The notes under the pieces were generated by a model, which ran no database searches, was not told the origin of the DNA, and worked only from the letters and a program-made list of their open reading frames with translations. DNA of 38,313 nt from an uncultured Granulosicoccaceae bacterium. Lineage in GTDB: Bacteria > Pseudomonadota > Gammaproteobacteria > Granulosicoccales > Granulosicoccaceae. The stretch spans positions 1-38,313 of the forward strand of contig CALKXD010000174.1 of the NCBI GenBank assembly GCA_938003855.1, written 5' to 3'. This document shows positions 7,867-35,707 of the stretch, in pieces; positions within the stretch are counted from its first letter, which is position 1, and each line of letters opens with the position of its first letter. Both the position numbers and the translations under genes were made by a program.

Positions 7867-8045
7867 ACAGCACGTTACGCAAATCGAAAGCGCGTTCAGG
7901 CGGGAGTTGAGCGGCTGCAGGTCATTGTCCTTCGTGCGAGGCTTGTCAGGGGGTCTGTGTTCTGTCTGGACAAAAATATGTAAATTCATATAATATTTCC
8001 CGGTAAGGATTGGGCCGTCGGTTCATCCACCGGGAGACCTGGAAC

Positions 8046-10208: not shown

Positions 10209-11775
10209 TCCCGATAACCGCTTAAAGCCACTGGCCTCCAATGCGACGCCCGTGAGTGATACCTCTGCCGGTATTATAAAAATAGCCATTCATGCGGTCG
10301 GTGGTCAGGGTGGTGGTGTACTGGCGAACTGGATATCCGATCTTGCCACCCGTGGTGGATACGCCGTGCAAATGACCTCAGTCGCCGGTGTAGCACAGCG
10401 TACCGGTGCGACTATCTATTATATTGAGATGGTGCAGAAAACTGATAAAAGGCCTGTGCTGGCGCTGACGCCGGCCCCGGGTGATGTCGATATCCTGATC
10501 GCCGCTGAGTTAATGGAAGCCGGTCGTGCCGTAGTGCGCGGGTTTGTTACGCCGGACCGCACTACGTTAATTGCATCAAGTCACCGTATTCTGGCGGTGG
10601 ATGAAAAAGTCCTTCCGGGTGACGGACGCGCAGACAGTCCACTGGTCTATGAAAAAATAAAACTGGCGGCTCACAAGACCCTGTGCTTCGACATGGAATC
10701 TATTGCCAGCGGTGCGGGTAGTATGATTTCAGCCAGTTTGTTCGGCGCGCTGGCCAAAAGCGGTGAACTGCCATTTTCGAAAGACTTGTTTGAAGACGTT
10801 ATCCGCCGCTCCGGTCGTGGCGTTGATGCCAGTCTCACCGCGTTTCGCGGCGCATTGAACTATGACGAAGGTGTACCATTGGTCCGATTCGACTCCGCCC
10901 CGAAGGTCATCGGTGGTGATCGGTCCGCCGCACCGGTCGGGCCCGCTCGACTCATGGCGCAATGGCAGTCACTGTCTGATCAGGTGACGGCAATGCCCGA
11001 ACCGGTACAGAAGATGGCGATGGCCGGATTGCGCAAGGTGGTGGACTACCAGGACACCGCCTACGGTGCTGAGTACTTACAGACCGTGCAATTGTTTCTG
11101 GCTCAGGATTCTGGCGATAGTACCTATACACTGACCACTACGGCGGCCAAATATATCGCTAACGCCATGTGCTATGACGACATCATTCGTGTAGCGGATC
11201 TAAAAACCCGTGCCAGCAGAGAGCGACGCCTGCGTCGTGAGCAGCAGGCCGACGCCGGGCAGATAGTGCAAGTGACCGAATATTTTCATCCGCGCGCGCA
11301 GGAAGTCTGCGCTACGCTGCCAGCCCCGATTGGTCGTCGTATAGAAAACAGCCCGCGTTTGTATGGTCTGCTCAATAAGCTGGTGGACAAAGGCCGTCGA
11401 ATTCGAACCGACAGTGCCAGTGGTTTTCTGATGCTGTGGTGCACCAGTGTGCTAAAGCCGGTACGTCGTAGATTGCTGCGGCATCGGGTTGAAACGGATC
11501 ACCTGCAACACCTGGTGAACACCAGCCTGTCAGCCGCAGAGCAGTCGTACCCGCTTGCGATAGCCATTCTAAAATGCCAGCGGCTTGTCAAAGGGTATTC
11601 GGATACGCACGCAAGAGGGCAAAGTAAATATAGAATGCTCATCGACGCGCTACCGGCTTTAGGGGGGCAATCCGCGTCGGCCGAGCAATTGAGTCAACTG
11701 CTGGAGTTGGCGCTGCAAGATGAGTCCGGAGACTTGCTGCAGGCAGAATTGGCCGCGCTAACCGTTAATGCCTAG
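10198..11775 (+). CDS. iorB: indolepyruvate oxidoreductase beta-type subunit with long C-terminal extension (DUF6537-like)
   Basis: With the GTG at 10198 the product has about 525 residues; an ATG at 10186 is also possible. GAGG seven bases before the GTG favours the former. Residues 25-210 are the gamma-type domain of 2-oxoacid oxidoreductases (AVGGQGGGVLANWISDLA and SVAGVAQRTGATIYYIEM). The remaining 300 residues form a helical extension with LRKVVDYQDTAYGAEYL, typical of the proteobacterial indolepyruvate oxidoreductase family and assigned to DUF6537 from memory. Classical archaeal IorB is only about 200 residues. The gene begins inside the end of iorA, so translation is probably coupled. 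Confidence 0.87.
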   Translation: MSSDPDNRLKPLASNATPVSDTSAGIIKIAIHAVGGQGGGVLANWISDLATRGGYAVQMTSVAGVAQRTGATIYYIEMVQKTDKRPVLALTPAPGDVDILIAAELMEAGRAVVRGFVTPDRTTLIASSHRILAVDEKVLPGDGRADSPLVYEKIKLAAHKTLCFDMESIASGAGSMISASLFGALAKSGELPFSKDLFEDVIRRSGRGVDASLTAFRGALNYDEGVPLVRFDSAPKVIGGDRSAAPVGPARLMAQWQSLSDQVTAMPEPVQKMAMAGLRKVVDYQDTAYGAEYLQTVQLFLAQDSGDSTYTLTTTAAKYIANAMCYDDIIRVADLKTRASRERRLRREQQADAGQIVQVTEYFHPRAQEVCATLPAPIGRRIENSPRLYGLLNKLVDKGRRIRTDSASGFLMLWCTSVLKPVRRRLLRHRVETDHLQHLVNTSLSAAEQSYPLAIAILKCQRLVKGYSDTHARGQSKYRMLIDALPALGGQSASAEQLSQLLELALQDESGDLLQAELAALTVNA

Positions 11776-15600: not shown

Positions 15601-16548
15601 GTGTCTCTTGAACTGATCATTAATCGAATAGAGAACGAAAATTCAAGGATCCGCGTCTTGTATCTTTCGGCCGCAGACGGCAGCGATCTGCCGGGCTACA
15701 CGCCGGGGGCCCACATTGACGTTGAGATCGATGGCATCGGTACACGCAGTTATTCACTAATCGACTTTTCAACACCGCTGGACAGCCCGAACTGTTACTG
15801 CATTGCGGTTCAGCGCGAAGATGACGGGCAGGGCGGCTCGCGAGCCATGCATCAATTCGAGTTTGGCGATGTCATGGTCGCATCGACGCCGAAAAACGAC
15901 TTTGAACTAACCACTTCGGACTCCCCGGTGATCCTGCTGGCGGGGGGCATCGGTGTGACGCCACTGATCTCCATGGCAACCCTGCTGCAGGATACCGGTG
16001 CCGCATTTCAGTTTCACTACAGTGGCCGTAACGCTGACTCAATTGCGTTTCGAAAGGTGCTTGATGAGCAGCACAGCGAACAGCTCTCAGTGTATCTTGA
16101 CGATCAGAACCCGCTCAGCCTCAATGCTCTGTTTTCATCCGCTGATGCGTCTTCGGTGGTTTATATCTGCGGGCCGCGGGGCATGATCGATGCGGCCAGA
16201 GAAGCGGCCGCGGCAAACGGGATCTCTGCGGATAATATTCATATCGAGCTGTTTGCAAGCGCAGAGACACAAACCGGCGACACAGGTTTTGAGGTCGAAA
16301 TTCAATCAACCGGTCAGGTGTACGAGGTTCCCCCGGGACAAACCATCATTGATGTACTGGAAGCGGCCGACATTGATCTGGTTTATGACTGTCAGCGCGG
16401 CGACTGTGGAATTTGCCAGACTGACGTGATCAGCGGTACCCCGGATCACCGTGATGTTGTGTTGTCAGATGATGAACGTGCATCTGGTAAGGTGATGCAG
16501 ATCTGTGTCAGCCGTGCAAAAACCGCGCGACTGGTGCTTGATTTGTAA
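15601..16548 (+). CDS. phthalate dioxygenase reductase-like electron transfer protein (PDR/VanB family)
   Basis: A 315-residue flavin reductase with C-terminal ferredoxin. The flavin motif RSYS is at 49-52. The NAD(P)-binding GGIGVTPLISMA is near residue 117. The plant-type 2Fe-2S domain has C264, C269, C272 and C302 in the C-x4-C-x2-C-xn-C pattern. Domain order FMN/NAD/2Fe-2S is that of PDR/VanB reductases of class I oxygenases. It would pass electrons from NAD(P)H to the Rieske oxygenase encoded directly downstream. The start is a GTG with GGGAA upstream. It is the first gene of the operon, behind the MarR-controlled promoter. Confidence 0.92.
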   Translation: MSLELIINRIENENSRIRVLYLSAADGSDLPGYTPGAHIDVEIDGIGTRSYSLIDFSTPLDSPNCYCIAVQREDDGQGGSRAMHQFEFGDVMVASTPKNDFELTTSDSPVILLAGGIGVTPLISMATLLQDTGAAFQFHYSGRNADSIAFRKVLDEQHSEQLSVYLDDQNPLSLNALFSSADASSVVYICGPRGMIDAAREAAAANGISADNIHIELFASAETQTGDTGFEVEIQSTGQVYEVPPGQTIIDVLEAADIDLVYDCQRGDCGICQTDVISGTPDHRDVVLSDDERASGKVMQICVSRAKTARLVLDL

Positions 16549-16604
16549 CGTAGCCCGGTGCCGTTGCGCGTCACCCGACATACGCCTGTAAAAAGGAAAA
16601 AAAC

Positions 16605-17936
16605 ATGAGTCATACATTCACCACGGCTGAGTCTGTAACGCGACTGGTTAATTCGCATCAGGTGCATCGCGATGTCTATACCAGTGAAGCGGTCTACCGA
16701 CTCGAAATGCAGCAGTTGTTTTGCAATGCCTGGGTATATGTCGGGCACGATAGCCAAACACCAGCCAAGGGCGACTACTACACCACGCAGGTAGGTGATC
16801 AGCCGGTGATACAAGTGCGCCATTCCGATGGTGAAATAAAAGTACTGTATAACCGCTGTCCGCATAAAGGTACCAAGATCGCTATAGACAGAGAGGGCAA
16901 CACCGGTAAGTTCTTCCGCTGCCCCTATCATGCCTGGTCGTTTAAAACCGATGGTTGCCTGCTGGCTATCCCGCTTAAGAAGGGCTACGTAGGGACCGGC
17001 CTCGATAAAACTGAAAATGTAAAAGGCATCAAGGCGGTTGGTGCGGTGATGAACTACCGTGGATTTATATTTGCGCGTTTGGCGGAAACCGGCATCAGCT
17101 TCGAGGACTACTTTGGCGAGAGCCTGTCGTCGATTGACAATATGGTTGACCGCTCGCCTGAGGGCAGACTGGAAGCCATTGGACCACCGCTTCGCTATAT
17201 GCATCAGTGCAACTGGAAGATGCTGGTCGAAAACCAGACCGATACCTGTCACCCGATGGTCGCACATGAGAGCAGTGCCGGCACCGCGATCAAATTGTGG
17301 CAAGAGCTTGGCAGCCCTGAGCCCAAGCCCCCGGCGATGCAGATCATCGCACCGTTTATGTCACCCTACGAATTTTTCGAAGACATGGGTATTCGAACCT
17401 GGCCCAACGGGCATGGCCACACCGGTGTGTATCATTCGATTCATTCTGACTACTCGGCGATTGCCGGTTACTTTGAGGCGATGGTGGCAAGCTATGGCGA
17501 CGAGCGCGCCAGGCAGATACTCGATGAAAACCGCCATAATACCGTATATTTTCCCAATATTATGATCAAAGGCCCCATTCAGCAGTTGCGCAATTTTATA
17601 CCGCTGGGGCCGGATAAAACGCTGGTTGAGAGTTATATTTTCCGACTGGTCGGCGCTCCCGATGAATTACTGGCTCGTACCGCCATGTACAACCGGATGG
17701 TTAATGCACCGACCAGTATTGTCGGTCACGACGACCTTGAAATGTATGAGCGTGCACAGGAAGGTTTGCTTTCAAACGGACTGGACTGGGTCAATATCCA
17801 GCGTCTGCACAGTGACGATGAAGACTATACACAGGAGGCAGTGGAGAACGGCACTACCGAGCGACAAATGCGCAACCAGTTTAACGCCTGGCTGAAGTTC
17901 AATACCTGCTCGCTGCCGTCCGGGGGCGTGGCATGA
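16605..17936 (+). CDS. aromatic ring-hydroxylating dioxygenase, Rieske alpha subunit
   Basis: A 443-residue catalytic subunit. The Rieske 2Fe-2S motif is C85-x-H87 and C106-x2-H109 (RCPHKGT, FRCPYHAW). The mononuclear iron site is D213, H216 and H221 in ENQTDTCHPMVAH, with the bridging Asp present. Length and architecture fit the alpha subunit of the benzoate/biphenyl dioxygenase superfamily. AAGGA lies eight bases before the ATG. The beta gene overlaps its stop (ATGA). With the reductase it should form a two-component class I system adding O2 across a ring. The substrate cannot be deduced from sequence alone. Confidence 0.93.
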   Translation: MSHTFTTAESVTRLVNSHQVHRDVYTSEAVYRLEMQQLFCNAWVYVGHDSQTPAKGDYYTTQVGDQPVIQVRHSDGEIKVLYNRCPHKGTKIAIDREGNTGKFFRCPYHAWSFKTDGCLLAIPLKKGYVGTGLDKTENVKGIKAVGAVMNYRGFIFARLAETGISFEDYFGESLSSIDNMVDRSPEGRLEAIGPPLRYMHQCNWKMLVENQTDTCHPMVAHESSAGTAIKLWQELGSPEPKPPAMQIIAPFMSPYEFFEDMGIRTWPNGHGHTGVYHSIHSDYSAIAGYFEAMVASYGDERARQILDENRHNTVYFPNIMIKGPIQQLRNFIPLGPDKTLVESYIFRLVGAPDELLARTAMYNRMVNAPTSIVGHDDLEMYERAQEGLLSNGLDWVNIQRLHSDDEDYTQEAVENGTTERQMRNQFNAWLKFNTCSLPSGGVA

Positions 17937-18415
17937 CTGCACATAGCAGAGAAGAGATAATAGACTTCCTCTATGACGAAGTACGGATGCTGGATGAAGG
18001 TCGATACAATGACTGGCTGGCGCTGTGGTTGGCCGACGGCCATTACTGGATGCCACTGGACTACAAGCAGACTGATCCTTTACTGGTCACCTCGCTTTTG
18101 TACGAAGATATCTTCATGCTGAAATTGCGCGTCGAGCGGCTCAATGGTGCGCGGACCTTCAGTCAAAAACCGAAAAGCCGCTGCCATCATGTGTTGCAGC
18201 GGCCGTTTGTTGATGTGATCGATAACGACCGCGGTTTTTATCAGACCAATGTGTCGATGCACTATATAGAGACCCGCCACGATGATCAGTTTTTACTGGC
18301 ATTAACCGCAACCCACGAACTAAAATCAGTGGACGGCCGGTTGAAAATTGCCAACAAACGCGTCGATCTACTGAATTCTGATGCCGCATTCGGCAACATT
18401 CAATTGTTGCCATGA
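17933..18415 (+). CDS. aromatic ring-hydroxylating dioxygenase beta subunit
   Basis: A 160-residue protein of the NTF2-like beta-subunit family. It opens with the helix EEIIDFLYDEVRMLDEGRYNDWLALW and then DGHYWMPLD, the family's usual first strand. RPFVDVIDNDRGFYQTNVSMHYIETR forms the sheet. Beta subunits have a structural role in alpha3beta3 oxygenases. The ATG overlaps the alpha stop by 4 bp, indicating translational coupling. The next gene's start overlaps its end in the same way. Confidence 0.9.
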   Translation: MTAHSREEIIDFLYDEVRMLDEGRYNDWLALWLADGHYWMPLDYKQTDPLLVTSLLYEDIFMLKLRVERLNGARTFSQKPKSRCHHVLQRPFVDVIDNDRGFYQTNVSMHYIETRHDDQFLLALTATHELKSVDGRLKIANKRVDLLNSDAAFGNIQLLP

Positions 18416-20037
18416 GCTCTATACCGCATGAAAGCATCTACCGCGCTTTTGTCTCCAGCGCAGAATGCTGGCCGGACAGGCCGGTACTCAATGTGTTGCC
18501 ATCGACCGCACAGATCTACAACATTGACTCCGCAGAGATAAGCTACCAGCAACTGCGTCAGCAAGTGGAGCAACTGGCTGATCGGTTCCAGCAGGCCGGT
18601 TACCGTCAGGGGATGCGGGTGGCCTTGCTGCAGGAAAACAGGCCGGTGTTCTTCGCGCTCTGGCTTGCGCTTAACAAGCTGGGGGTATCGGTGGTACCGA
18701 TCAATCCGGACTTGCGCGCAGCCGAGCTTGAGTATTTAATCGGCCACGCAGAACCGGCGCTAATCATAGCGATCGGCACACGCCTGACCGAGCTACAGCA
18801 GGCCGCCACGGCGGCCGGCATTGACCTGCAAGTGATTACCTTCGATAGTGTGTTTCCTGCGCCGCGTCGCAACGCGGTAGTGGCCGAGCTGCTCACCGGT
18901 GAAGCAATGGAAGCTGCGGTTCTGTATACCTCCGGTACCACTGGTAACCCTAAAGGCTGTGTATTACCTAATACCTATTTTTTACTGGCCGGCCAGTGGT
19001 ATGCGACTGTCGGCGGTATTGCCACACTGACTGAAAACGGCGAGCGAATGATCACACCGCTGCCACTGTTTCACATGAACGCGATGGCGTATTCGTTTAT
19101 GGCAATGGTCACCGTGGGTGGTTGCCTGATCGCATTGGATCGATTTCACCCGGGCAGTTGGTGGGCCGATGTAAAAGCGTCGGGTGCAACCTGCCTGCAT
19201 TATCTGGGAGTGATGCCATCGTTGCTGATGGCAGCCGCGAGCAGCGAAGCGGATCGCGATCACTCGGTGCGCTTTGGCTTTGGTGCCGGTGTCGATGCAA
19301 AGCTACACGCGGACTTTGAGCAGCGCTTTGGTTTTCCGCTGGTAGAGGCCTGGGCCATGACTGAAACCGGTGCCGGTGCGGTGGTCGCGGCCAGTACCCG
19401 GGATAACCGTCTGGTCGGGCAATCCTGTTTGGGCAAGCCAGCCGATGATATTGCCTGCCGCTTAATCGACGACAACGGTAGCGATGTTGTTGATGGTCAG
19501 CCGGGTGAGTTGTTGGTGCGCCGTCGCCACGGTGATCCACGCTACGGTTTTTTCTCTCACTACTATAGAAATAAAGCGGCCACCGATGATGCGTGGCAGG
19601 GCGGCTGGTTTCATACCGGCGATATTGTACGTTTGGATAATCAGGGGCAGCTTTTTTTTGTTGATCGTAAAAAAAATGTGATCCGCCGGTCAGGGGAGAA
19701 TATTGCCGCCGTAGAAGTTGAATCCATCTTAATGCGCCACCCGCGTATTCATGCCGCGGGCGTCGCAGCGGTGCCGGATCAGATCAGAGGTGATGAGGTA
19801 TTTGCCTGTCTGGTGGCAGATCAACCATCCGCACAACTTGCTGTTGATATCACACGGTGGTGCCTGACGCAGTTGGCGTATTATAAAGCGCCTGGCTATA
19901 TTGCCTTTGTCGATAAGCTACCGGTGACGGCAACACAGAAGATTCAGCGTGCAGAGCTCAAACGGCTGGCCGCCACCCTGATAAATGACTCTGACACGGT
20001 CAGTACCACCGCCTATAAAAAAAGACAAACCGCATGA
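18412..20037 (+). CDS. AMP-dependent acyl-CoA synthetase/ligase
   Basis: A 541-residue ANL-superfamily adenylating enzyme. The P-loop is YTSGTTGNPKG near residues 174-184, and motif A5 is WAMTETGAGAV. The hinge and A8 region reads GWFHTGDIVRLD and VDRKKNVIRRSGENIAAVEVE. The catalytic C-terminal lysine is in TATQKIQRAEL. The sequence is closest in style to CaiC-like and other medium-size acid:CoA ligases. In this operon it probably activates a carboxylic acid to the CoA ester before or after ring oxidation. Its start and stop overlap neighbouring genes by 4 bp (ATGA). Confidence 0.92.
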   Translation: MSSIPHESIYRAFVSSAECWPDRPVLNVLPSTAQIYNIDSAEISYQQLRQQVEQLADRFQQAGYRQGMRVALLQENRPVFFALWLALNKLGVSVVPINPDLRAAELEYLIGHAEPALIIAIGTRLTELQQAATAAGIDLQVITFDSVFPAPRRNAVVAELLTGEAMEAAVLYTSGTTGNPKGCVLPNTYFLLAGQWYATVGGIATLTENGERMITPLPLFHMNAMAYSFMAMVTVGGCLIALDRFHPGSWWADVKASGATCLHYLGVMPSLLMAAASSEADRDHSVRFGFGAGVDAKLHADFEQRFGFPLVEAWAMTETGAGAVVAASTRDNRLVGQSCLGKPADDIACRLIDDNGSDVVDGQPGELLVRRRHGDPRYGFFSHYYRNKAATDDAWQGGWFHTGDIVRLDNQGQLFFVDRKKNVIRRSGENIAAVEVESILMRHPRIHAAGVAAVPDQIRGDEVFACLVADQPSAQLAVDITRWCLTQLAYYKAPGYIAFVDKLPVTATQKIQRAELKRLAATLINDSDTVSTTAYKKRQTA

Positions 20038-21209
20038 GAGCACGCCAGTCCTACGATGGCGTGGTCGTTACCGCACCGTTTTCGACACCGTACCAGCGCT
20101 ACTCAATTGAAACTGCCCATTGGTGGATTGCGCGTGCACTGCGCGGGTCGTTACAGTCGGCGGGTTTAAAGCCGCTCGACATCGATGGGTTTACGGTTTC
20201 CAGCTTTACGTTGTTTCCGGATACTGCGGTGGGTTTAACTCAGCACCTGGGCTTATCTCCAAGGTGGCTTGATCATATCCCGATGGGAGGGGCGAGTGGT
20301 GTGGTGGCTCTGCGGCGTGCGGCGCGTGCTGTGCAGAGCGGTGACGCCAGCATTGTGGCCTGTGTGGCCGGGGATACAAATCACATCGATAGCTTTCGCG
20401 GCTTGCTGTCGAGTTTTTCGCGCTTTGCCATGGATGCTTCTTATCCTTACGGGTATGGCGGGCCAAATGCAAACTTCGCTCTGCTCACTGATCGCTATAT
20501 GCAGACCTATGGTGCCACCCGTGAGGACTTTGGTCGGCTTTGCGTGGCGCAACGCAGCAATGCGCTGAACAACCCGGGGGCTGTGATGAAAAAGCCCCTG
20601 ACGCTTGAGCAATATCTGGGTGCGCGTCCAATCGCAGATCCCATCGCATTGTTCGACTGTGTCATGCCGTGCGCCGGGTCAGAGGCGTTTCTGGTGATGC
20701 ATGAAGATCAGGCGCGCGCCCGTCAGTTGCCGTTTGCACGCCTCAGCGGTGCCATAGAGCGTCACAATGCACATGCCGCTGATCCCATTCAGTTGCGCGG
20801 TGGCTGGACGGTGGACATTGAAGAACTCTATAACATGGCAGACTGCACACCGGAGTCGATAGACTTGTTGCAAACCTATGACGACTACCCTGTGATCTCA
20901 ATGATGCAGATCGAAGATCTCGGTTTTTGCGCCAAGGGCGAGGCCGCATCCTTTGTGCGCGGGCATGATCTTACTACCCGTGGTGACTTCCCGCACAATA
21001 CATCGGGCGGTCAGTTATCGGCCGGTCAGGCGGGTGCGGCAGGCGGGTTTATCGGCATGGTGGAGGCAATCCGGCAGCTGACAGATGCCGCTGAAAACCG
21101 GCAGGTAAAAAATGCGGCGCGCGCGATGGTGTCGGGCTTTGGCATGATTAACTATGATCGCGGTGTGTGTTCTGCTGCGGCCATCCTGAGCAGCGAGGAC
21201 GCGTCGTGA
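20034..21209 (+). CDS. thiolase-superfamily protein lacking catalytic Cys/His, probable Ltp2-like aldolase
   Basis: A 391-residue thiolase-fold protein. Where thiolases carry the nucleophile in C-A-S-G, this protein has G86-A-S-G (PMGGASGVVALRRA), so the active Cys is missing. The C-terminal GHPxG histidine motif is replaced by NTSGGQLSAGQAGAAGG, which lacks His. The GGQLS element recalls SCPx/Ltp2-type members that act as retro-aldolases with a DUF35 partner. The next gene, overlapping by 4 bp, encodes exactly such a DUF35 domain. I therefore infer C-C bond cleavage or formation on a CoA ester rather than Claisen thiolysis. A non-catalytic role cannot be excluded. Confidence 0.8.
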   Translation: MRARQSYDGVVVTAPFSTPYQRYSIETAHWWIARALRGSLQSAGLKPLDIDGFTVSSFTLFPDTAVGLTQHLGLSPRWLDHIPMGGASGVVALRRAARAVQSGDASIVACVAGDTNHIDSFRGLLSSFSRFAMDASYPYGYGGPNANFALLTDRYMQTYGATREDFGRLCVAQRSNALNNPGAVMKKPLTLEQYLGARPIADPIALFDCVMPCAGSEAFLVMHEDQARARQLPFARLSGAIERHNAHAADPIQLRGGWTVDIEELYNMADCTPESIDLLQTYDDYPVISMMQIEDLGFCAKGEAASFVRGHDLTTRGDFPHNTSGGQLSAGQAGAAGGFIGMVEAIRQLTDAAENRQVKNAARAMVSGFGMINYDRGVCSAAAILSSEDAS

Positions 21210-22462
21210 CAACGCCACTGATTCCACCACCTAGAAAAGACCCGCAAAAGCGAACGGTCTCGCCAACGCGCCCACCGCAAATGCGAAGCCGTGCGGCACT
21301 GGGCTTGAGTGCGGCAGCGGCACACGGGCGCTTTGCGTTGCAGCGTTGCGCCGAGTGCGGGGCGGTGCAGTACCCGCCGCGTGATGCCTGTTCGTCGTGC
21401 CTGTCTCTAGAGCTGCCGTGGCAGGATGTTTCACCGCTTGGCGAAATACTCGCTGAAACGACGGTCAGAACATCAACCAAACTTTATTTTCGTGAGCGCG
21501 CACCCTGGCGCACCGGCAGCGTGCAGCTCGATGCCGGTCCGGTGCTTCTGTGTCATCTGCACGGCGACTGTGAACCGCGCTCGCGTGTTAAATTGCTTAA
21601 TCGTCTGGACCGCGCCGGGCAGGGCGTGTTACTGGCCGTGCCCCTGGAGAGGACCCCGACAATGGAAGACGATCCGCAGTTGCGTGCATTGACGTCAGAC
21701 CCTAAACATCGGCGTGTGTTAATAACCGACGCCCGCAACCCGAACGCACCGGCCCTGGCGACTAGCCTGTTGGCCGCTGGTGCTGCTATGGTGTTTGTCG
21801 GCGAGGCGGAAAGCTGGCGGCCGTATCCTGAAAAACCGCTGTTGCAAGCCATAGATGGCGTCGAGCTGTTACCGATGGACGTCACGGATACCGCATCGGT
21901 GCAGAAACTGGCCGGTGAACTGGGTGGCAAGACTGATATTCTAATTAACAATGCACGCTTTATCCGGCCGGGCGGTGTGCTGTCGCGTGGTGATACCGGC
22001 TTTGCCCGTGATGAAATGGAAGTAAACTATCTGGGTCTGATGCGCCTGGCACAGGCGTTTGGTCCGGCGATGTGCTCAAGAGTATCGGATGGTATCAACT
22101 CGGCGGTAGCCTGGGTCAATATACTTTCGGTGCATGCGCTGTCTAATGCGCCTGACTACGGCTGTTTTTCGGCATCTAATGCGGCAGCTCACTCACTTAG
22201 CCAATGCCTGCGGGCCGAGTTCCGGTCATCAGGACTGCGGGTGATGAATGTTTATTGTGGCCCCACCGAAGATGACTGGTACCAACCGTTGCCACCGCCG
22301 AAAGTGTTGCCGGAGTCATTGTCGCGCAGTGTTGTGCAAGGCCTCCAGCAGGGCCTTGAGGAAGTCTACTGCGGCGATGTTGCGAAAGACGTCTACACAC
22401 GCTTTGAGCAGTCTCCTAATATTCTGGAGCGGGAAACCACACAGGGGGTCGAAGGCGCATGA
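21206..22462 (+). CDS. DUF35 (Zn-ribbon/OB-fold) - degenerate SDR fusion protein
   Basis: With the GTG at 21206, overlapping the thiolase-like stop, the product has 418 residues. Residues 40-66 are a Zn ribbon with C48, C51, C62 and C65 (RCAECG, ACSSC); about 70-148 is the OB fold of DUF35 proteins. Residues 169-400 follow an SDR fold (VLITDA, PMDVTD, ILINNAR, NILSVHA), but the glycine-rich cofactor loop is replaced (DARNPNAP) and the YSASK catalytic motif reads F321-S-A-S-N325. The SDR half is therefore probably not a normal dehydrogenase. DUF35 proteins act as obligate partners of thiolase-fold aldolases and acyltransferases. The SDR part may be structural or bind CoA. Confidence 0.85.
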   Translation: MTTPLIPPPRKDPQKRTVSPTRPPQMRSRAALGLSAAAAHGRFALQRCAECGAVQYPPRDACSSCLSLELPWQDVSPLGEILAETTVRTSTKLYFRERAPWRTGSVQLDAGPVLLCHLHGDCEPRSRVKLLNRLDRAGQGVLLAVPLERTPTMEDDPQLRALTSDPKHRRVLITDARNPNAPALATSLLAAGAAMVFVGEAESWRPYPEKPLLQAIDGVELLPMDVTDTASVQKLAGELGGKTDILINNARFIRPGGVLSRGDTGFARDEMEVNYLGLMRLAQAFGPAMCSRVSDGINSAVAWVNILSVHALSNAPDYGCFSASNAAAHSLSQCLRAEFRSSGLRVMNVYCGPTEDDWYQPLPPPKVLPESLSRSVVQGLQQGLEEVYCGDVAKDVYTRFEQSPNILERETTQGVEGA

Positions 22463-23262
22463 GTCAAGCGACACTCAGTGAGCTGGCACTGCAGATAGCC
22501 AGTGGTGAGGTTCGCATAGTCGACCTCACACACACGTTGGACCCTGACTTTCCAGTGATTATTCTGCCCCCGGAGTTTGGCCAGTGTGCGCGCTTCCGAA
22601 TGGAAGAGATAAGCGCTTATGACCACCGTGGACCGGCGTGGAAGTGGCATAACATCAGTATGTCGGAGCATACCGGTACTCATTTCGATGCACCTTCGCA
22701 CTGGATATCCGGCCGTGATGTGCCCAACAATTCTGTTGATGAAATCCCCCCGCAGGCGTTTGTTGGTCCGGTTGCGGTGATCGACTGCTCGGCTCAGGCT
22801 GCGCTCGACGAAGACTTTGAACTTACCCCTGAGGTTATCGAAGCGTGGGAGCACCAGCACGGACGCATTGCCGCAGACAGCTGGGTGCTGATGCGTACCG
22901 ACTGGTCTAAAAAGTCCGGTGCAGACTATCTGAACATGAAATCTGACGGGGCGCATTCTCCGGGCCCCACACCGGATGCGATCCGTCTGCTGGTTGATCA
23001 ACGTAATATCCGTGGTTTCGGCACTGAAACGGTTGGTACGGATGCCGGGCAGGGGGCGCACTATACGCCGCCGTATCCGGCACATTTCTATCTGCATGGT
23101 GCGGGTAGATACGGCCTGCAATGTCTGGCCAACCTGGATCAGCTGCCTGCGACCGGTGCCATACTGATGGCACCGCCACTGAAAATTAAAGACGGGACCG
23201 GCAGCCCGCTGCGGGTGCTGGCAATGGTCCCCGCAGCGCAGCACGAAGGGGCACAGCAATGA
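22459..23262 (+). CDS. cyclase-family metal-dependent hydrolase (kynurenine formamidase-like fold)
   Basis: A 267-residue protein of the cyclase family (PF04199 type). The metal motif H71-x-G-T-H75-x-D77-x-P79-x-H81 (HTGTHFDAPSH) is intact. The DLTHTLDPDFPV opening and the late ETVGTDAGQG segment are family-typical. Members include kynurenine formamidase, isatin hydrolase and polyketide cyclases, all acting on amide, lactam or ring-opening chemistry. Between the DUF35 fusion and the SDR it most likely hydrolyses or opens an intermediate of the same pathway. It overlaps both neighbours by 4 bp. Confidence 0.9.
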   Translation: MSQATLSELALQIASGEVRIVDLTHTLDPDFPVIILPPEFGQCARFRMEEISAYDHRGPAWKWHNISMSEHTGTHFDAPSHWISGRDVPNNSVDEIPPQAFVGPVAVIDCSAQAALDEDFELTPEVIEAWEHQHGRIAADSWVLMRTDWSKKSGADYLNMKSDGAHSPGPTPDAIRLLVDQRNIRGFGTETVGTDAGQGAHYTPPYPAHFYLHGAGRYGLQCLANLDQLPATGAILMAPPLKIKDGTGSPLRVLAMVPAAQHEGAQQ

Positions 23263-23984
23263 GTCAGTACACCGCATTGATTACCGGTGGCAATAAAGGG
23301 ATAGGAGCCGATCTCGCAGCGCGGCTGCTGGAAAAAGATTACAAGGTAATTTCGGTGGCGCGGCGCGCACCGGAAAAATCACACCCCAATCTCTATTCGG
23401 TGGAAGCTGATCTACTGGACGCGGACGCGGTTAGCGCTGCCGCCACGGAGATTGCCGCCGCGCATAAGGTCACCCATCTTATTCACAATGCCGGGTTGAT
23501 CTGGCCGAATCTGATCGAGGATGCCAGTGCCAGTGATATCACCGGTCTGGCGCAGTTGCATCTGGGGTCTGCGCTGACTCTTTTGCAGGCGACACTGCCG
23601 TCGATGAAAGCGGATAACTTCGGGCGGGTGATGTTTAACGCGTCGCGTGCCGCACTGGGCGCCCCCACCCGCACTGCCTATAGCGCCAGCAAGGCCGGGA
23701 TGATTGGCATGGCGCGTACCTGGGCGCTTGAGTTAGCCGCTTACGGAATTACCGTTAATGTGGTGGCCCCCGGCCCCGTGTTGACGGACAATTTCTGGGG
23801 CATTATAGAAAAAGGCAGTGAACAGGAAACCGCACTGGCCGGGCGAATTCCAGTTAAGCGTCTGGGCACCGTGGCAGATGTGTCAAATGCGTTTCTATTT
23901 TTCTGCGATCCGCAAAACAGCTTTGTCACCGGTCAGACTTTATATGTGTGCGGTGGCGCCAGTGTTGGCACTTTAATGCTTTGA
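23259..23984 (+). CDS. SDR-family oxidoreductase
   Basis: A 241-residue classical short-chain dehydrogenase. The cofactor loop is TGGNKGIG at 9-16, the NNAG position reads HNAG, and the catalytic YSASK is intact in RTAYSASKAGMIGM. PGPVLTDNF and VTGQTLYVCGG follow as expected. It is the last gene of the operon. It is the obvious candidate for cis-dihydrodiol or hydroxyacyl-CoA dehydrogenation, in contrast to the degenerate SDR half of the DUF35 fusion. It ends 45 bp from the convergent minus-strand genes; no clear terminator hairpin was seen between them. Confidence 0.9.
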   Translation: MSQYTALITGGNKGIGADLAARLLEKDYKVISVARRAPEKSHPNLYSVEADLLDADAVSAAATEIAAAHKVTHLIHNAGLIWPNLIEDASASDITGLAQLHLGSALTLLQATLPSMKADNFGRVMFNASRAALGAPTRTAYSASKAGMIGMARTWALELAAYGITVNVVAPGPVLTDNFWGIIEKGSEQETALAGRIPVKRLGTVADVSNAFLFFCDPQNSFVTGQTLYVCGGASVGTLML

Positions 23985-24029: not shown

Positions 24030-25049
24030 TCAGTCTTTTTCGTCACCGACTTGTCCGGGCATCACATCGAGGTGATTCAGCATAGCCACAAACGCTGCAA
24101 GCTTTTTCTGTTTATAGGCTTCCAGATCCATGTTTTCGTAATCCAGAAACCCTTGTCCGGTGCGTAGTCCGATGCGGTTTTGCTGCATATTCTGATTGAT
24201 AATCTCGGGTGCGGCGTAGCGTTGTTCACCGGTGGCCCCGGTCATATAGTTACCGGCATGGTAGAGGATGTCACCGCCCCCCCAATCGATAAATTCCAGC
24301 ATGCCCAGTATGGCGAAGCGAAAGCCAAAGCCGTATTTACTGGCTTTGTCTATATCTTCGACAGAGGCGACACCTTCTTCGACCATTCGGGCCGCTTCGT
24401 TCATAGCAAGCATCTGCATGCGCGGCACAATATAGCCGGGACTCGCCTTGCAGACGACAGGCACCTTGCCCATGGCTTCCAGCAGGTGCTTTAGTCTGGC
24501 GGTGGTTTCCGGGGCTGTACGGCTGGCCGGGGACAGCTCTACCAGTGGCACCAGATAGGCCGGGTTAAGCCAGTGCGCGTTTAGAAAACGCTGCGGATTT
24601 GTGACCAGAATTTGCAAATCATTAGAGAGTATTGTGGAGGTGGTTGACGCGATGATCGCATCGTGCGGTGCGTGCTGGCATATTGTTTTAAATGCAGCGG
24701 TTTTTGCCTCCAGCGTTTCCGGCACCCCTTCCAATACGATGCTGCAGTCTTTGAATGCCTCGGCGACTTCTGCACTGTGGTAATAACTGACTTTCGCAAA
24801 AACATAATCCACCTGATCGGGTTTGACCATACCGAGTGTTGCGAGGGTGACCAACGTTGAATGAATCTCGTCCAGTGCTTGTTGCCGTGTTGCTTGCTGA
24901 TCATCGCCCGATCTGGCTTTAAGGTCGATCAGATTCGACTTGATACCTGCCAGGCAGAAGGCTATCGCCATGCTCCGGCCCATGCGACCGGCCCCGGCAA
25001 TGGCGATAGTCAGGTTGCTGTAACTCTGCTGTTCTGCCGGCTCAGTCAT
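24030..25049 (-). CDS. 3-hydroxyacyl-CoA dehydrogenase family protein
   Basis: With the ATG at 25047-25049 the product has 339 residues. It opens with the NAD fold IAIAGAGRMGRSMA and the acidic NLIDLKAR strand. IVLEGVPE, the catalytic-loop-like ASTTSTILSNDLQ and HWLNPAYLVPLVELSP follow. The C-terminal substrate domain contains SPGYIVPRMQMLAMNEAARMVEEGVAS and KYGFGFRFAILGMLEFIDWGG. This is the short 3-hydroxybutyryl-CoA dehydrogenase type (carnitine dehydrogenase is a relative). A longer ORF upstream would overlap the neighbouring gene extensively and is rejected. Its start overlaps the opine-dehydrogenase-like stop by 8 bp, so the two are coupled. Confidence 0.88.
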   Translation of the reverse strand: MTEPAEQQSYSNLTIAIAGAGRMGRSMAIAFCLAGIKSNLIDLKARSGDDQQATRQQALDEIHSTLVTLATLGMVKPDQVDYVFAKVSYYHSAEVAEAFKDCSIVLEGVPETLEAKTAAFKTICQHAPHDAIIASTTSTILSNDLQILVTNPQRFLNAHWLNPAYLVPLVELSPASRTAPETTARLKHLLEAMGKVPVVCKASPGYIVPRMQMLAMNEAARMVEEGVASVEDIDKASKYGFGFRFAILGMLEFIDWGGGDILYHAGNYMTGATGEQRYAAPEIINQNMQQNRIGLRTGQGFLDYENMDLEAYKQKKLAAFVAMLNHLDVMPGQVGDEKD

Positions 25050-26133
25050 CAAAGCCGTCCTCAAGCTGTTGCTGCATCTGCGCGACGCTAAGTGCACTAA
25101 GCCCCATCTGCTCAAGTGTGCGGCCGGTACGTCGGAAATCGTTGTCGCAGACGGCAGACCCAATCGCCAGTAGGCCGGTGGCGACCGGTGCGGCAACGCC
25201 GGCCCAGTCTGCGGCAGAGACCAGAAATGCCAGACCGGTGGCGACGTCTTCACGCATGTATCGATGCTCGGTCAGTACCAGATGCTCCCGCCAGTCGCCG
25301 GAATCGGTCAGTTTCTCGTGCGCCAGGTTGCCGTACATCCATTCTTCGCGTTCGGGGTCGTAGTGATCGGCCAGCGGGAAGTGCGGGCCGCTGTATCCCA
25401 GCGCTTCGCGAACCGCTATACGTTCGGCGTCCAGCTGTGTTGTTACGCGGCGGATGGCGGGTTGCGTTCCTTCGTTGTGGATATCCCAGTGATCAAAGTG
25501 CTCAATGGGTCCCGCGTTCATCAGGATCAATGGCGGGTGAATGATAGGGCCGGCATTCATCAGAGCGCCCGACAGTGCGTTGCCTGCGTCTTCCACTGAC
25601 GGGTAGGCCTGTTGAATCACCGATAGGGTGCGGGACTTTGCGCTGTGCGGGTAGACGCCGCTGGGCAGGCGCGTTGCCCGTGTGGTGATTGCGATCTGAT
25701 CTGCGCCGTGCAGACGAGACAGATACGGCAGGGTGCCGGCCTCGGCGAAGCTCACACGGGCCATACTACCGGCACTGCGGATAATGCGTGCCATCAAGAC
25801 ACTGCCGAAAGTCCCGGGTGGCAGAAATATCACCTGACCGTCAACCAGGTGTGGTGCCAGTTGTGCGGCAATAGACTCCTGTGCGGTGGCGGGCGTCGGG
25901 CAGACAATCAATTGCGCGCCGTCGAGGGCGGTGGCGATATCGTCCGTGACGACGTCGAGCGTTACCTGTCGTTGGCCGCTGATGTCTTTGAGTGTTAGTT
26001 GATTCTGCTTTGCTCTGAGTGCGGCTATCGCGTTGGAGTCGCGCCGCCAGAACCGGACAGAATGGCCGTTCAGAGTCAGGTCTGCGGCTGCTGCGTGCGA
26101 CCCGTTACCGCCGCCTAGTACTGCAATTTCCAT
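25042..26133 (-). CDS. NAD/NADP octopine/opine dehydrogenase family protein
   Basis: Starting at the ATG at 26131-26133 (AGGG upstream) the product has 363 residues. It begins MEIAVLGGGNGSHAAAADL, a dinucleotide-binding fold. The second domain has the opine dehydrogenase signature: LMNAGPIIHPPLILMNAGPIE, HWDIHNEGTQPAIRRVTTQLDAER and PLADHYD. Family members reductively condense an amino acid with a 2-oxo acid, or act on related 2-hydroxy or amino substrates. In-frame extension to 26304 has no ribosome site and no conservation. It is first in a two-gene unit with the hydroxyacyl-CoA dehydrogenase and divergent from the tautomerase fusion, whose promoter must lie in the 157 bp between them. Confidence 0.87.
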   Translation of the reverse strand: MEIAVLGGGNGSHAAAADLTLNGHSVRFWRRDSNAIAALRAKQNQLTLKDISGQRQVTLDVVTDDIATALDGAQLIVCPTPATAQESIAAQLAPHLVDGQVIFLPPGTFGSVLMARIIRSAGSMARVSFAEAGTLPYLSRLHGADQIAITTRATRLPSGVYPHSAKSRTLSVIQQAYPSVEDAGNALSGALMNAGPIIHPPLILMNAGPIEHFDHWDIHNEGTQPAIRRVTTQLDAERIAVREALGYSGPHFPLADHYDPEREEWMYGNLAHEKLTDSGDWREHLVLTEHRYMREDVATGLAFLVSAADWAGVAAPVATGLLAIGSAVCDNDFRRTGRTLEQMGLSALSVAQMQQQLEDGFDD

Positions 26134-26290
26134 CGCTTGCCCTTGCATGTCAGTGTATCGGTTTGTCTGTTGACACCGACGCACGATGACGGCCTGACAG
26201 ACAAGCGAATAGCGTATTGAGTTTCGGGGTAAAATGCGAACAGATTTTAAACCCGCCCGATTATGTCCGGCTATGTCCGGGGGAGAGAGC

Positions 26291-26851
26291 ATGCCAGTTA
26301 TCACGGTAACGCTGATTGAAGGCTATGAGGCCGACGCGCGGCAACGTTTGTCTGAGCGCCTGACCGATGCGACGCGCTCGGTGATAAAAGCCCCGGCCGA
26401 TGTGGTCACGATTATGATCAACGAAGTCTCAGCGGGAAACTACATGCGCGGTCGGGTATCGCGGCAGCCTGGCCCGGCACACGCTGATCAGGTACAGATT
26501 GTTCGCGATTATCTGAGCGCAATGGAAAACCGTGATCTGCAGCGGGCCGGTGGTTTTTTGTCGGCGGATTTTCGCATGACTTTTCCCGGTGGTGTGGTGT
26601 TTTCAGAAGTGGATCAGTTGATTGCCTGGGCCGGAGACAGGTATCAGTCAGTGGTTAAAACCTACCAGCGCTTTGATGAATGCGTCGGCAGTGATGACAT
26701 GACCGTCTATTGCTATGGCACACTCAGTGGTGTGTGGCCCGATGGTACCGCGTTCTCCGGCGTGCGCTTCATTGATCGCTTCACTATTGCTGACGGGCTG
26801 TTGCTTGATCAGCAGGTCTGGAATGATCTGGCTGAAGTGCGTGACGTCTAA
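26291..26851 (+). CDS. 4-oxalocrotonate tautomerase-SnoaL (NTF2-like) fusion protein
   Basis: The start is fixed by chemistry: tautomerases use the N-terminal proline, and the ATG at 26291 gives MPVITVTL with GGGGGAGA directly upstream. An ATG at 26234 would bury that proline. Residues 1-60 are the beta-alpha-beta 4-OT unit (ITVTLIEGYEADARQRLSERL, VTIMINEV). After a short linker (RQPGPAHA), residues 68-186 form a SnoaL-like NTF2 domain (VRDYLSAMENRDLQRAGGFLS, VYCYGTLSGVW, RFIDRFTIADG). The combined size is 186 residues. Both folds handle enol/keto or small cyclic substrates. It could serve the nearby catabolic genes, but this is inference. Confidence 0.85.
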   Translation: MPVITVTLIEGYEADARQRLSERLTDATRSVIKAPADVVTIMINEVSAGNYMRGRVSRQPGPAHADQVQIVRDYLSAMENRDLQRAGGFLSADFRMTFPGGVVFSEVDQLIAWAGDRYQSVVKTYQRFDECVGSDDMTVYCYGTLSGVWPDGTAFSGVRFIDRFTIADGLLLDQQVWNDLAEVRDV

Positions 26852-31951: not shown

Positions 31952-32320
31952 TTGTCAGACCTCAGCAAGTGCTTGGTGACGTTGCTGACCACCGGCTTGC
32001 GCAGCGATACGGGAGAGGGGGGCGTGTACAGCTTCTCATGAACAAATCCTTGTACTTGCTTTTGATACGTTGCCAGTCAACCGTGGTGATGTGATTGATA
32101 ACTGAAAAGGTGGCTGCGGAATGCACACAGTGTGCCAGTAGTCGCACTAAATTCGGGCACGCGCCAGAGCGGGTTGATCGGACGGTGATTGGCACGGCTG
32201 TACTGCATGCGCGCAAAAGCGGGAATTTTACCGTCGAATTTTTTGTCTTTTTGGCCTGTGTTGCTTGCTCAAGGTGTTAGTATCAGCGGTAAAATCGCTG
32301 AGCGAAACCGGACAATTTGT
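31952..32320. other. 369-bp intergenic region, no gene recognised
   Basis: This region separates the divergent PAS/GGDEF/EAL and repeat-protein genes. A minus-strand ORF at 31962-32216 has Arg/Cys/Ser-rich composition with no recognisable motif and is not called. The right half is T-rich (AATTTTTTGTCTTTTTGG at about 32237-32254) and has several -10-like hexamers (TAGTAT, TAAAAT), but no -35 at 16-18 bp spacing. Confidence 0.5.
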
Positions 32321-35300
32321 ATGATGGATCATGAAAACCTGAATAACGCCCGGCCGGGTGTGGCTTTTTTTGTCGTATCCCTGCTGGTATGGCTGGCCCC
32401 GAATACACTGCACGCCACGTCGGCGATTGACGGGGGAGCGCTGCCGAGTATCAGTCAGGTTAACGGGGTGCCGACGAGCTGCTCAGCCTGCCATGCGATG
32501 ACCGATAACAACAATCTGAAATTTTCAGATCAAGTGGTCGATTCCGGGACGGGATCTACGATACTGAGTATGACCGGTAATTCCAGCTTTAACACCTATA
32601 CCTCTATAGAAGATGGTGCGGTAACGCTGTCCAAGTCACCGACTGTCGCCGGTCTGGTTGAAGGCGTTAATAATTTTGACTACTGTATTATTGATACGAC
32701 GGCGGCACTGCAGGACTCAAATACAACCCGTGGCCCCAGAGACTATAACTGTGACACCGTCAAAATCACGGTAAGCGCTGCGCCGAATCAGGACCCGGTG
32801 GTCAGCGCCAGTGTCAGTTCACTGAGTCTGCAGGATGGTGCTCAGGATACCGTGACTGTCACTACCTCTGATCCGGACAACGATACGGTTACGGTAACCG
32901 CGTCATCCAGTTCAGATGCAATCGCCCGGGTGACCGGACCTGACGGCTCGGGGCGCTTTACGGTTGAAGCACGCTCAGTCGGCAGCGCTACGATTAGTTT
33001 TAGTGGCAGCGATGGCAACGGTGGAAGTGATTCGGCCACGGTGCAGGTAACCGTAACTGCAGCACCTAATCAGAACCCGACTATCAGCACCAATAGTAAT
33101 TCACTGTCTATACAGACCGGGCAGCAGGATACCGTGTCAGTGACGACAAGCGATTCTGACGGCGACACGGTAACCGTGACAGCCGCGTCCAGTGCCACAG
33201 CGGTTGCGACGGTATCGGGTCCGGATGGATCAGGCAATTACACGGTGTCTGCGGTATCGACGGGTAATGCAACGATCACTTTCAGCGCCAGTGATGGCAA
33301 TGGCGGGACAGCCAGCGCGTCGGTTCAGGTGACGGTAACCGCAACACCTAACCAGAACCCGACTATCACCACCAATACCAATACACTGTCTATACAGAGC
33401 GGGCAGCAGGGCACCGTGGCAGTGACGACAAGCGATTCTGACGGCGACTCGGTCACCGTGACGGCCGCGTCCAGTGCCACCGCGGTTGCGACGGTATCGG
33501 GTCCGGATGGATCAGGCAATTACACGGTGTCTGCGGCATCGACGGGTACTGCGACGATCACTTTCAGTGCCAGTGACGGCAATGGCGGCACAGCCAGCGC
33601 GTCGGTTCAGGTGACGGTAACGGCAACACCTAACCAGAACCCGACTATCACCACCAATACTAATTCACTGTCTATACAGACTGGTCAGCAGGGCACCGTG
33701 GCAGTGACGACAGGCGACTCTGACGGCGACACGGTAACCGTGACGGCCGCGTCCGGTGCCACAGCGGTAGCGACAGTATCGGGTCCGGACGGATCAGGCA
33801 ATTATACGGTGTCAGCAGTATCAACGGGCACAGCGACGATCACCTTCAGTGCCAGTGATGGCAATGGCGGTACTGCATCGACCACCGTGCAGGTGACAGT
33901 ATCCGGCGGCGCAGTCAATCAAGCGCCCGTCGTGACGACCGATGTTACCGCGCTGGCGTTGCAGATCGGTCAGCAGGGTTTTATAACAGTGAGCACCTCG
34001 GATGCCGATGGTGACACGGTGGCCGTGACGGCATCTTCCAGTGCCGCATCGGTCGCCACCGTGGCCGGACCCGATGCGTCCGGTGTCTATACGATTTCCG
34101 TAGCCACCGCAGGAGCCAGCAACATAACCTTCACCGCCGATGATGGCAACGGCGGGTCGGCATCAACAACCGTACCGATCACCGTCACTGCGGCCCCGGT
34201 AAATCAAAACCCGGTGCTGGCCCTTGATGTTGCTTCTCTGTCGATACCGGCTGGCCAGCAGCGCACTGTTGGCGTCACAGTCAGTGATGCTGACGGCGAT
34301 ACAGTGACCGTAACCGCAAACTCAAGTTCGACATCTGTTGCAGCCGTCACCGGCCCTGATGCGGCCGGTCGCTACACAGTAGCGGCGATTGCCGAGGGGA
34401 CGGCTGCGATCAGTTTCGCGGCCACTGATGGCAACGGGGGATCGGCTAACGGGTCGGTCGCCGTTACTGTGACCATGGCGAGTACCGGACCGGACTCGGA
34501 TGGTGACACAGTAGCCGATGCAACGGATAACTGCCCTTCGGTCGCTAACGCGAACCAGCTTGATACTGACAGTGACGGGGCAGGTGATCGCTGTGACGCT
34601 GATGCGAACGGTGATGGACGGTTGGATGCCGTTGCCTTGCTGACCGTACAGCAGGGCAGCAATCGTGGCGTGATCGGAGTCATTGGCAGTGGGTTGGGAG
34701 AGATGAGAGTCATCACGCAACTGACATCAGCCAGCGATAGTGACTACACCTTTGACTGGACTGGCAGCAGCAGCGTTCTGCTCAATGGTGGCAGCACCAG
34801 GATCGAGGGTTCAACACTGATTTTCAACCCCGATGCCGATGCGATTCCGGTCGGAGTCTACCCTGTGCAGCTAACCTATTCGGCAGATGGGCTGCAAGCC
34901 GTCGCACGCACAGTCATCGTGCTGATTGGCAATATCGGCTCGGAGCCTGCGGCGAATTTCTCGGATAACGACAACGACGGTTATCCTCAGCGCACTGATA
35001 ACAATGACAACAACGCGACCACCATACTGCTGGATTCCAGAACTGCCGGTGAGGTAACCGCCAACCCCGGCACCAGCTTGTCGATAGGCAGCCTGGCATC
35101 GCTCGCCTCCGCTTTGCAAAACTACCTTCAGTCTTCAGTGTTGCTGCAGTCTGATCAGCTTCAGCCTGTGGTCACTGCACTGTACCCTGATCTGAATGTA
35201 TCGCTCGATAGCGGTTTAACCAGTCTGGCCGGTGTTATAAATCTAGAGCTGCGCAGAGCCACTGAGGGCGGACTGCAGGCGGTTATCCGTTTTCCGAACG

Positions 35301-35707
35301 GATTGCCCGAGCAAGCTGCTGCCAGGGCTTTCCTGCCTCTGAGTGGTGGCTGGCAGACGCTGGCCGTTGATGCCAGTAACCAGATCGCCAGTGCGACGTC
35401 GTCGGGCGGTAGTTGTCCGTCAGTCGGTAATGCCGCCTATACCGCCGGACTGAATGCCGGCGCTGATTGCGTACAACTGTCACTGGCCGATGGTGGGGCT
35501 AATGATTCAGATGGCGCTGCGGATAGCGTGCTTCGATTGATTCTGGATATAGGGCAGGGCGACGGGTCGGTGACGGCATCCGGCTCCGGCGGCGGTGTAC
35601 TGCGAGCGGTGGATTTGCTGGTGTTGCTGCTTTTGCTGATAGCTGTCGGAAATCGTCACTATCTACCTGGTCTGCAGCAGGTGCTGTCCTCGCCAAAGCG
35701 CCGCTAG
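32321..35707 (+). CDS. exported multi-repeat Ig-like protein with one c-type haem motif and C-terminal sorting-like tail
   Basis: Starting at ATG 32321 the product has 1128 residues. Residues 14-36 form a signal peptide (VAFFVVSLLVWLAP to ATSA). A single CSACH haem motif is at 54-58. Six Ig/cadherin-like repeats of 94-95 residues begin near 156, 250, 344, 438, 533 and 628, each running NQxPxx to GQQxTVxVTTSDxDGDTVTVTA to SDGNGGxAS. Residues 724-766 are Asp-rich and thrombospondin-3-like (DSDGDTVADATDNCPS), likely binding calcium. A further domain with FPNGLPEQAAARAFLP follows. The end is GSGGG, a hydrophobic LLVLLLLLIAVG and a basic SPKRR, resembling GlyGly-CTERM-type anchors. An exported, surface or outer-membrane-associated protein is inferred. 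Confidence 0.85.
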   Translation: MMDHENLNNARPGVAFFVVSLLVWLAPNTLHATSAIDGGALPSISQVNGVPTSCSACHAMTDNNNLKFSDQVVDSGTGSTILSMTGNSSFNTYTSIEDGAVTLSKSPTVAGLVEGVNNFDYCIIDTTAALQDSNTTRGPRDYNCDTVKITVSAAPNQDPVVSASVSSLSLQDGAQDTVTVTTSDPDNDTVTVTASSSSDAIARVTGPDGSGRFTVEARSVGSATISFSGSDGNGGSDSATVQVTVTAAPNQNPTISTNSNSLSIQTGQQDTVSVTTSDSDGDTVTVTAASSATAVATVSGPDGSGNYTVSAVSTGNATITFSASDGNGGTASASVQVTVTATPNQNPTITTNTNTLSIQSGQQGTVAVTTSDSDGDSVTVTAASSATAVATVSGPDGSGNYTVSAASTGTATITFSASDGNGGTASASVQVTVTATPNQNPTITTNTNSLSIQTGQQGTVAVTTGDSDGDTVTVTAASGATAVATVSGPDGSGNYTVSAVSTGTATITFSASDGNGGTASTTVQVTVSGGAVNQAPVVTTDVTALALQIGQQGFITVSTSDADGDTVAVTASSSAASVATVAGPDASGVYTISVATAGASNITFTADDGNGGSASTTVPITVTAAPVNQNPVLALDVASLSIPAGQQRTVGVTVSDADGDTVTVTANSSSTSVAAVTGPDAAGRYTVAAIAEGTAAISFAATDGNGGSANGSVAVTVTMASTGPDSDGDTVADATDNCPSVANANQLDTDSDGAGDRCDADANGDGRLDAVALLTVQQGSNRGVIGVIGSGLGEMRVITQLTSASDSDYTFDWTGSSSVLLNGGSTRIEGSTLIFNPDADAIPVGVYPVQLTYSADGLQAVARTVIVLIGNIGSEPAANFSDNDNDGYPQRTDNNDNNATTILLDSRTAGEVTANPGTSLSIGSLASLASALQNYLQSSVLLQSDQLQPVVTALYPDLNVSLDSGLTSLAGVINLELRRATEGGLQAVIRFPNGLPEQAAARAFLPLSGGWQTLAVDASNQIASATSSGGSCPSVGNAAYTAGLNAGADCVQLSLADGGANDSDGAADSVLRLILDIGQGDGSVTASGSGGGVLRAVDLLVLLLLLIAVGNRHYLPGLQQVLSSPKRR
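32786..34480 (+). repeat. six in-gene tandem repeats of 282-285 bp
   Basis: Repeat units start at 32786, 33068, 33350, 33632, 33917 and 34202. The spacing is exactly 282 bp for the first four starts and 285 bp thereafter. Units two to four are nearly identical at DNA level, which points to recent unequal exchange or gene conversion; the outer units are diverged. Confidence 0.85.

Follow-up and report, generated by a model that had tools for sequence, protein, structure and literature searches.

A tautomerase-SnoaL fusion protein of an uncultured Granulosicoccaceae bacterium, a possible accessory isomerase in the catabolism of nitrogen-containing cyclic carboxylates

In the tautomerase superfamily, 3-bromopropiolate labels Pro1, and a paper in Biochemistry reportedly deals with a SnoaL domain in this superfamily. 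Two PDB entries released on 2025-04-09 describe a protein that joins both domains: 9mua, titled '4OT-SnoaL from P. atlanticus - Apo form', and 9mup, whose title names a '3-bromopropiolate treated' form of 4OT-SnoaL. The genus is abbreviated in these titles and we read it as Pseudooceanicola atlanticus, an alphaproteobacterium. While a structure of 4OT-SnoaL thus exists, our literature search returned no paper assigning it a pathway, nor any paper on the tautomerase superfamily with SnoaL or on Pseudooceanicola atlanticus with a tautomerase, and no title among the literature matches listed was about a tautomerase-SnoaL fusion. The second described system that concerns this locus is the iad operon of Variovorax, which leads from auxin to anthranilate according to the main text of PMC12633357. 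Note that 'SnoaL', 'tautomerase' and 'hydantoin' do not occur in that main text, nor do 'opine', 'tautomerase' and 'NTF2' in the main text of PMC10374108, and that term searches of PMC9613470 and PMC11630574 gave no match.

The window, i.e., the whole stretch of 38,313 nucleotides that was analysed, carries a plus-strand gene of 186 codons plus stop at 26291-26851. The preliminary description had proposed that this gene fuses a tautomerase to a SnoaL/NTF2-like domain, and the fusion is real, since both Pfam domains score above their curated cut-offs: Tautomerase PF01361 over residues 2-54 (26294-26452, a beta-alpha-beta unit; E 1.1e-8, 35.3 bits against 22) and SnoaL_2 PF12680 over residues 71-171 (26501-26803; E 2.2e-7, 31.9 bits against 27). 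DUF4440 (PF14534) is also reached in the fusion protein, with 25.6 bits against a cut-off of 25.2. A sequence search of the PDB found the same combination in 9mua/9mup, residues 2-184 of the query aligning with residues 1-183 of the 9mua chain (E 3.8e-55). The protein is therefore a member of the 4OT-SnoaL family, whose architecture was already known from the PDB. In addition, a structure model was built on two sequences, for which one of the five models reached a mean pLDDT of 60.2 and the others 35-40. Since its residues 1-65 fell below a pLDDT of 50, the SnoaL part alone was used; in this single model, residues 57-186 match 9mua (Z 17.7, rmsd 2.6, 130 aligned) and the SnoaL part matches TerC (Z 14.2, rmsd 2.3, 119 aligned). 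Structure prediction thus supports the NTF2-like fold of the SnoaL part, while the tautomerase part of the model is unusable.

The start that places a proline directly after the methionine, as originally proposed, is well supported. Although two in-frame ATGs lie further upstream (26234 and 26273), a GGGGGAG stretch stands before 26291 at a usual spacing, the aligned start of the relatives is Met-Pro, and at 7 of 14 loci there is no in-frame start codon between the preceding stop and the Met-Pro. Assuming removal of Met1, this start is predicted to expose the proline.

The conserved residues of the tautomerase domain were counted in 41 aligned fusion rows, reduced to 37 distinct sequences that include 9mua and 22 of the 40 matches from the order of genome G732 (in the window's phylum but a different class). 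Pro2 (codon 26294-26296), Tyr12 (codon 26324-26326) and Arg53 are present in 37/37 and Tyr51 in 34/37, while position 58 is Arg in 32, Lys in three and His in two sequences; Arg53 and Arg58 belong to a YMRGRVSR motif (residues 51-58, 26441-26464, plus strand). Tyr12 occupies the aligned position of 4-OT Arg11, and position 40, aligned with 4-OT Arg39, is Thr in 32, Val in three and Ile in two sequences. All 37 fusions therefore lack Arg11 and Arg39, the two residues given as catalytic for 4-OT in the text available from PMC5818174. As a comparison, a short tautomerase of genome G771 carries Arg at the two corresponding positions. The six NCBIfam tautomerase models listed for the fusion protein all miss their cut-offs (32.5/80, 31.4/56.9, 31.2/70, 30.7/55, 30/86 and 25.8/103 bits). 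The suggestion that this enzyme performs 4-OT-type chemistry on 2-hydroxymuconate-like substrates is not supported in view of these replacements and scores, on which the canonical 4-OT role was rejected, and the 2-hydroxymuconate assay proposed earlier is unlikely to succeed.

The loss of the 4-OT arginines together with the newly conserved arginines 53 and 58, as well as the propiolate-treated form named in the 9mup title, could also indicate an enzyme of the CaaD/MSAD kind (hydratase, dehalogenase or decarboxylase), in which Pro1 would serve as general acid and the domain would not be an isomerase. We consider this unlikely: Pfam finds one tautomerase stretch only in the fusion protein, while two units are present in the great majority of members of the four other superfamily subgroups (in the part of PMC5818174 available), and none of the scanned neighbours was named as a dehalogenation gene.

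The genomic context was fetched for 26 fusion loci. A HyuB (hydantoinase B) gene lies near 21 of the 26 (L013-L016, L021, L022-L025, L058 and L133-L143), the five loci without a nearby HyuB being the window, L010, L011, L026 and L012, of which the last has no HyuB but does have amidohydrolase and flavoprotein genes. The usual layout consists of DctMQP-LeuD-LeuC-GntR on one strand and, divergent from it, fusion-HyuB-HyuA-amidohydrolase-isocitrate-lyase-type-flavoprotein. In the order of G732, HyuB is close to the fusion in 11/11 loci (L133-L143), all of which hold LeuCD, hydantoinase A/B, amidohydrolase, lyase and flavoprotein genes, with TRAP genes in 10. At the Neorhizobium and Tistrella loci, two racemase genes accompany an MmgE/PrpD gene, and the fusion there, at 163 aa, is shorter and stays under the cut-off for SnoaL_2/DUF4440. 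In genomes G036 and G788, hydantoinase A/B are absent and the operon carries two PuuE-allantoinase-like proteins instead (107 and 111 bits in G036, below the NCBIfam cut-off of 424.6), a replacement that points to cyclic amide hydrolysis. A PuuE-like protein occurs in 10 of 398 sampled genomes, and a SnoaL gene stands beside it in these two only.

In the window itself, the fusion gene stands outside a hydantoinase operon. The same genome holds TRAP-racemase-amidohydrolase-flavoprotein genes on contig C93 and HyuA-HyuB-LeuD-LeuC on contig C64 (L084, 5416-13834). As judged by eye, the latter group has CoA-transferase-looking genes on both sides as well as a lyase-like gene, and no isocitrate-lyase-type gene was seen among them. 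A search of the window's genome for close relatives of the methylisocitrate-lyase-type protein (E 1e-40) found none, an empty answer that alone shows nothing.

The fusion gene is divergent from two dehydrogenase genes and lies beside an iad-type operon. On the minus strand, the first neighbour (25042-26136) belongs to the opine (octopine/CENDH-like) dehydrogenase family (Pfam PF02317, 5.3e-29; best PDB match 1bg6, 5.2e-37), and the second (24030-25085) to the 3-hydroxyacyl-CoA dehydrogenase (3HCDH) family (NCBIfam PRK08269, 470.2 bits against 427). Of 50 genomes including the window's own, eight have a close relative of the opine dehydrogenase (E 1e-60), and all eight hold SnoaL, although G019 has just a fragment of it at the end of a contig; among the other 42 genomes, SnoaL was matched in one (G004). 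G019 (L089) carries LeuC-LeuD-lyase-HyuB-HyuA-amidohydrolase-flavoprotein-opine dehydrogenase-3HCDH on one strand, and this arrangement ties the window's neighbours to the hydantoinase operon.

The iad-like operon comprises eight plus-strand genes (15601-23984), recognised by family matches: reductase, Rieske alpha, a small ORF in the place of the beta subunit, AMP-ligase, thiolase-like, DUF35-SDR, cyclase and SDR. Its Rieske alpha matches PDB 9o71 (E 3.3e-165), which is IadDE in the available text of PMC12633357. The same eight genes in the same order occur in G007 (L093), where they are followed on the contig by TRAP, racemase, opine dehydrogenase and 3HCDH-SnoaL genes. The protein in the IadH place (21167-22462) combines a ChsH2-type zinc ribbon, an OB fold and an SDR in a single chain. 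Elsewhere in the window, two long ORFs at 8010-11775 resemble indolepyruvate:ferredoxin oxidoreductase subunits by eye, and their relatives in G012 (L092; 87 and 71% identity) stand beside relatives of the MBL and SDR genes found in the window; a 1172-aa ORF at 32189-35707 shows, by eye in its translation, several similar tandem segments.

With an aromatic (auxin) operon next door, ending in anthranilate in Variovorax (main text of PMC12633357), and a tautomerase domain in the fusion, one could think of an ordinary 2-hydroxymuconate (4-OT) tautomerase in an aromatic meta-cleavage pathway downstream of that operon. This is very improbable, given the absence of Arg11/Arg39 in 37/37 fusions, the six missed NCBIfam cut-offs, the hydantoinase gene beside 21/26 fusion loci and the lack of any meta-cleavage enzyme among the window proteins scanned (part of the window ORFs).

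The fusion was also compared with operons in which its parts are missing or rearranged. Operons with SnoaL and no tautomerase were found at L019, L061 and L124 (genomes G036, G788 and G967), G967 having HyuA/B with SnoaL only, and the PuuE-like operon of G409 (L125) has neither domain; the fusion protein is thus dispensable there. A strict rule by which the tautomerase would accompany HyuAB and be missing with PuuE-like proteins was rejected, being broken by G967 and G409. In G007 and G008 (L017, L018), the SnoaL domain forms the C-terminus of a 3HCDH-like protein devoid of a tautomerase, with 46-48% identity to the window's SnoaL, and Pfam SnoaL_2 is weak there (E 0.00057 in L018, nothing at E 0.01 in L017). 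Altogether, SnoaL without tautomerase in like operons and SnoaL attached to 3HCDH indicate that the two domains are separable. Near these SnoaL-only and 3HCDH-SnoaL loci, a tautomerase-domain profile (E 1) detected no separate short tautomerase gene, the search covering frames of at least 40 residues in 24 loci plus the window and matching only the three known fusions among them.

A tree of the SnoaL domain was computed from 47 rows, G047 and two short tautomerases having been dropped beforehand. Both 3HCDH-SnoaL rows fall among the fusions, as do the SnoaL-only rows from G036 and G788, and 26 stand-alone rows stand apart (support 100/99). Several inner branches are open or weak, Neorhizobium and Tistrella sit on very long branches, and 9mua groups, though weakly (91/75), with the stand-alone rows. 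Despite the several weak branches, the simplest reading of these placements would be that the tautomerase domain was lost and the fusion partner exchanged.

Five residues of the SnoaL part (Arg159, Asp162, Trp177, Asn178 and Asp179) hardly vary, either in the fusions or in 33 rows that lack a tautomerase domain, two of which are 3HCDH-linked; in these 33, the first four residues are kept in 33, 33, 32 and 32 rows. These residues, the SnoaL that occurs alone in like operons of G036, G788 and G967 or 3HCDH-fused in G007/G008, and the lost 4-OT arginines would all agree with SnoaL as the working domain and a tautomerase domain that chiefly serves as a scaffold for oligomerisation or is vestigial. 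We hold this to be possible but doubtful, since Pro2, Tyr12 and Arg53 are invariant in 37/37 fusions, none of which a bare scaffold would need, and 9mup is titled as 3-bromopropiolate treated.

Our preferred reading, to which we give a probability of about one half, is that the fusion protein is an accessory isomerase (a proton-transfer enzyme) of a pathway that breaks down a nitrogen-containing cyclic carboxylate of the lactam, imide or hydantoin type. The operon context, the exchange of fusion partners and the loss of the tautomerase with the operon kept suggest cyclic amides or imides as substrates. From the domains, the start, the residue conservation and the operon and fusion context as observed, we infer the substrate class, every reaction step and the hand-over between the domains as follows. 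The acid would enter through the TRAP transporter, hydantoinase A/B would open the cyclic amide, the isochorismatase-fold amidohydrolase would remove the nitrogen, the flavoprotein and the LeuCD-type hydratase would process the resulting unsaturated acid, and the methylisocitrate-lyase-type lyase (in the window's genome, possibly a CoA-dependent one) would split the acid so formed. Within this sequence, Pro1 may act as general base or acid and move a double bond or enol next to the carboxylate, which would be held by Arg53/Arg58, and the SnoaL pocket may act on, or hold, the same or the next intermediate; a coupled two-step enzyme of tautomerase and SnoaL is thus possible. In the window's clade, the step of the fusion or of SnoaL would stand close to the 3-hydroxyacyl-CoA-dehydrogenase-like and opine-dehydrogenase-like enzymes. 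A narrow full-text literature search found no paper on a pathway of this kind. An extension that we regard as improbable would make SnoaL a mobile pocket handing a reactive intermediate from one enzyme of a cyclic-amide catabolic pathway to the next (fused to the Pro tautomerase in many lineages, to the next, 3HCDH-like dehydrogenase in others and free in still others), recruited in the window's clade next to an auxin-degradation operon for a nitrogen heterocycle related to indole-3-acetate.

Among 95 related genomes (own included), 15 match the window protein at E 0.001, namely eight full length, four with the SnoaL part only and three with fragments or broken copies (G019, G035 and G038); the full-length relatives in seven other genomes share 74, 56, 52, 51, 49, 48 and 47% identity. 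The phylum sample (398 genomes, E 1e-10) gave at least 28 matches, of which two are full length (own and G732), one is tautomerase only and 25 are SnoaL part only, and the class sample (369 genomes) gave at least four, own and three SnoaL only, both counts being lower bounds because some first-look candidates went unscored. In the order of G732, 40 of 292 genomes match at E 1e-45, 39 of them full length (G956 with an in-frame stop) and one with SnoaL only (G967). Nine Sulfitobacter plasmid records encode the fusion with 99% coverage of the query and 49-55% identity, six of these copies being annotated 'tautomerase family protein', and none of 29 viral-contig stretches that matched a pattern encodes a relative. 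At L021, positions 956-1267 hold an internally deleted fusion copy in which the tautomerase domain keeps its beginning and the SnoaL domain its end, by either a real deletion or an assembly error.

Compared with the described systems, the gene kinds of the iad-like operon agree with the Variovorax iad operon in the order C-D-E-F-G-H-I-J (available text of PMC12633357), the sequence comparison applying to IadD only. The stand-alone SnoaL_2/NTF2-like proteins ('nuclear transport factor 2 family protein') share the domain, Arg159, Asp162 and Trp177-Asn178-Asp179 with the fusion but have no tautomerase domain. The closest counterparts, 9mua/9mup, equal the window protein in length (186) and domain order, and 9mua shares its Pro2, Tyr12, Tyr51, Arg53 and Arg58, which are common to 15/15 aligned rows, 9mua among them. 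They come from another organism, however, and at 48-49% identity about half of the residues differ; moreover, among the fusion loci with fetched context, the neighbourhood of the window copy differs from that of most. Finally, the founder 4-OT (1bjp) likewise consists of one beta-alpha-beta unit with an N-terminal Pro, but the fusion, unlike it, is devoid of the catalytic Arg11/Arg39 and carries a C-terminal SnoaL domain.
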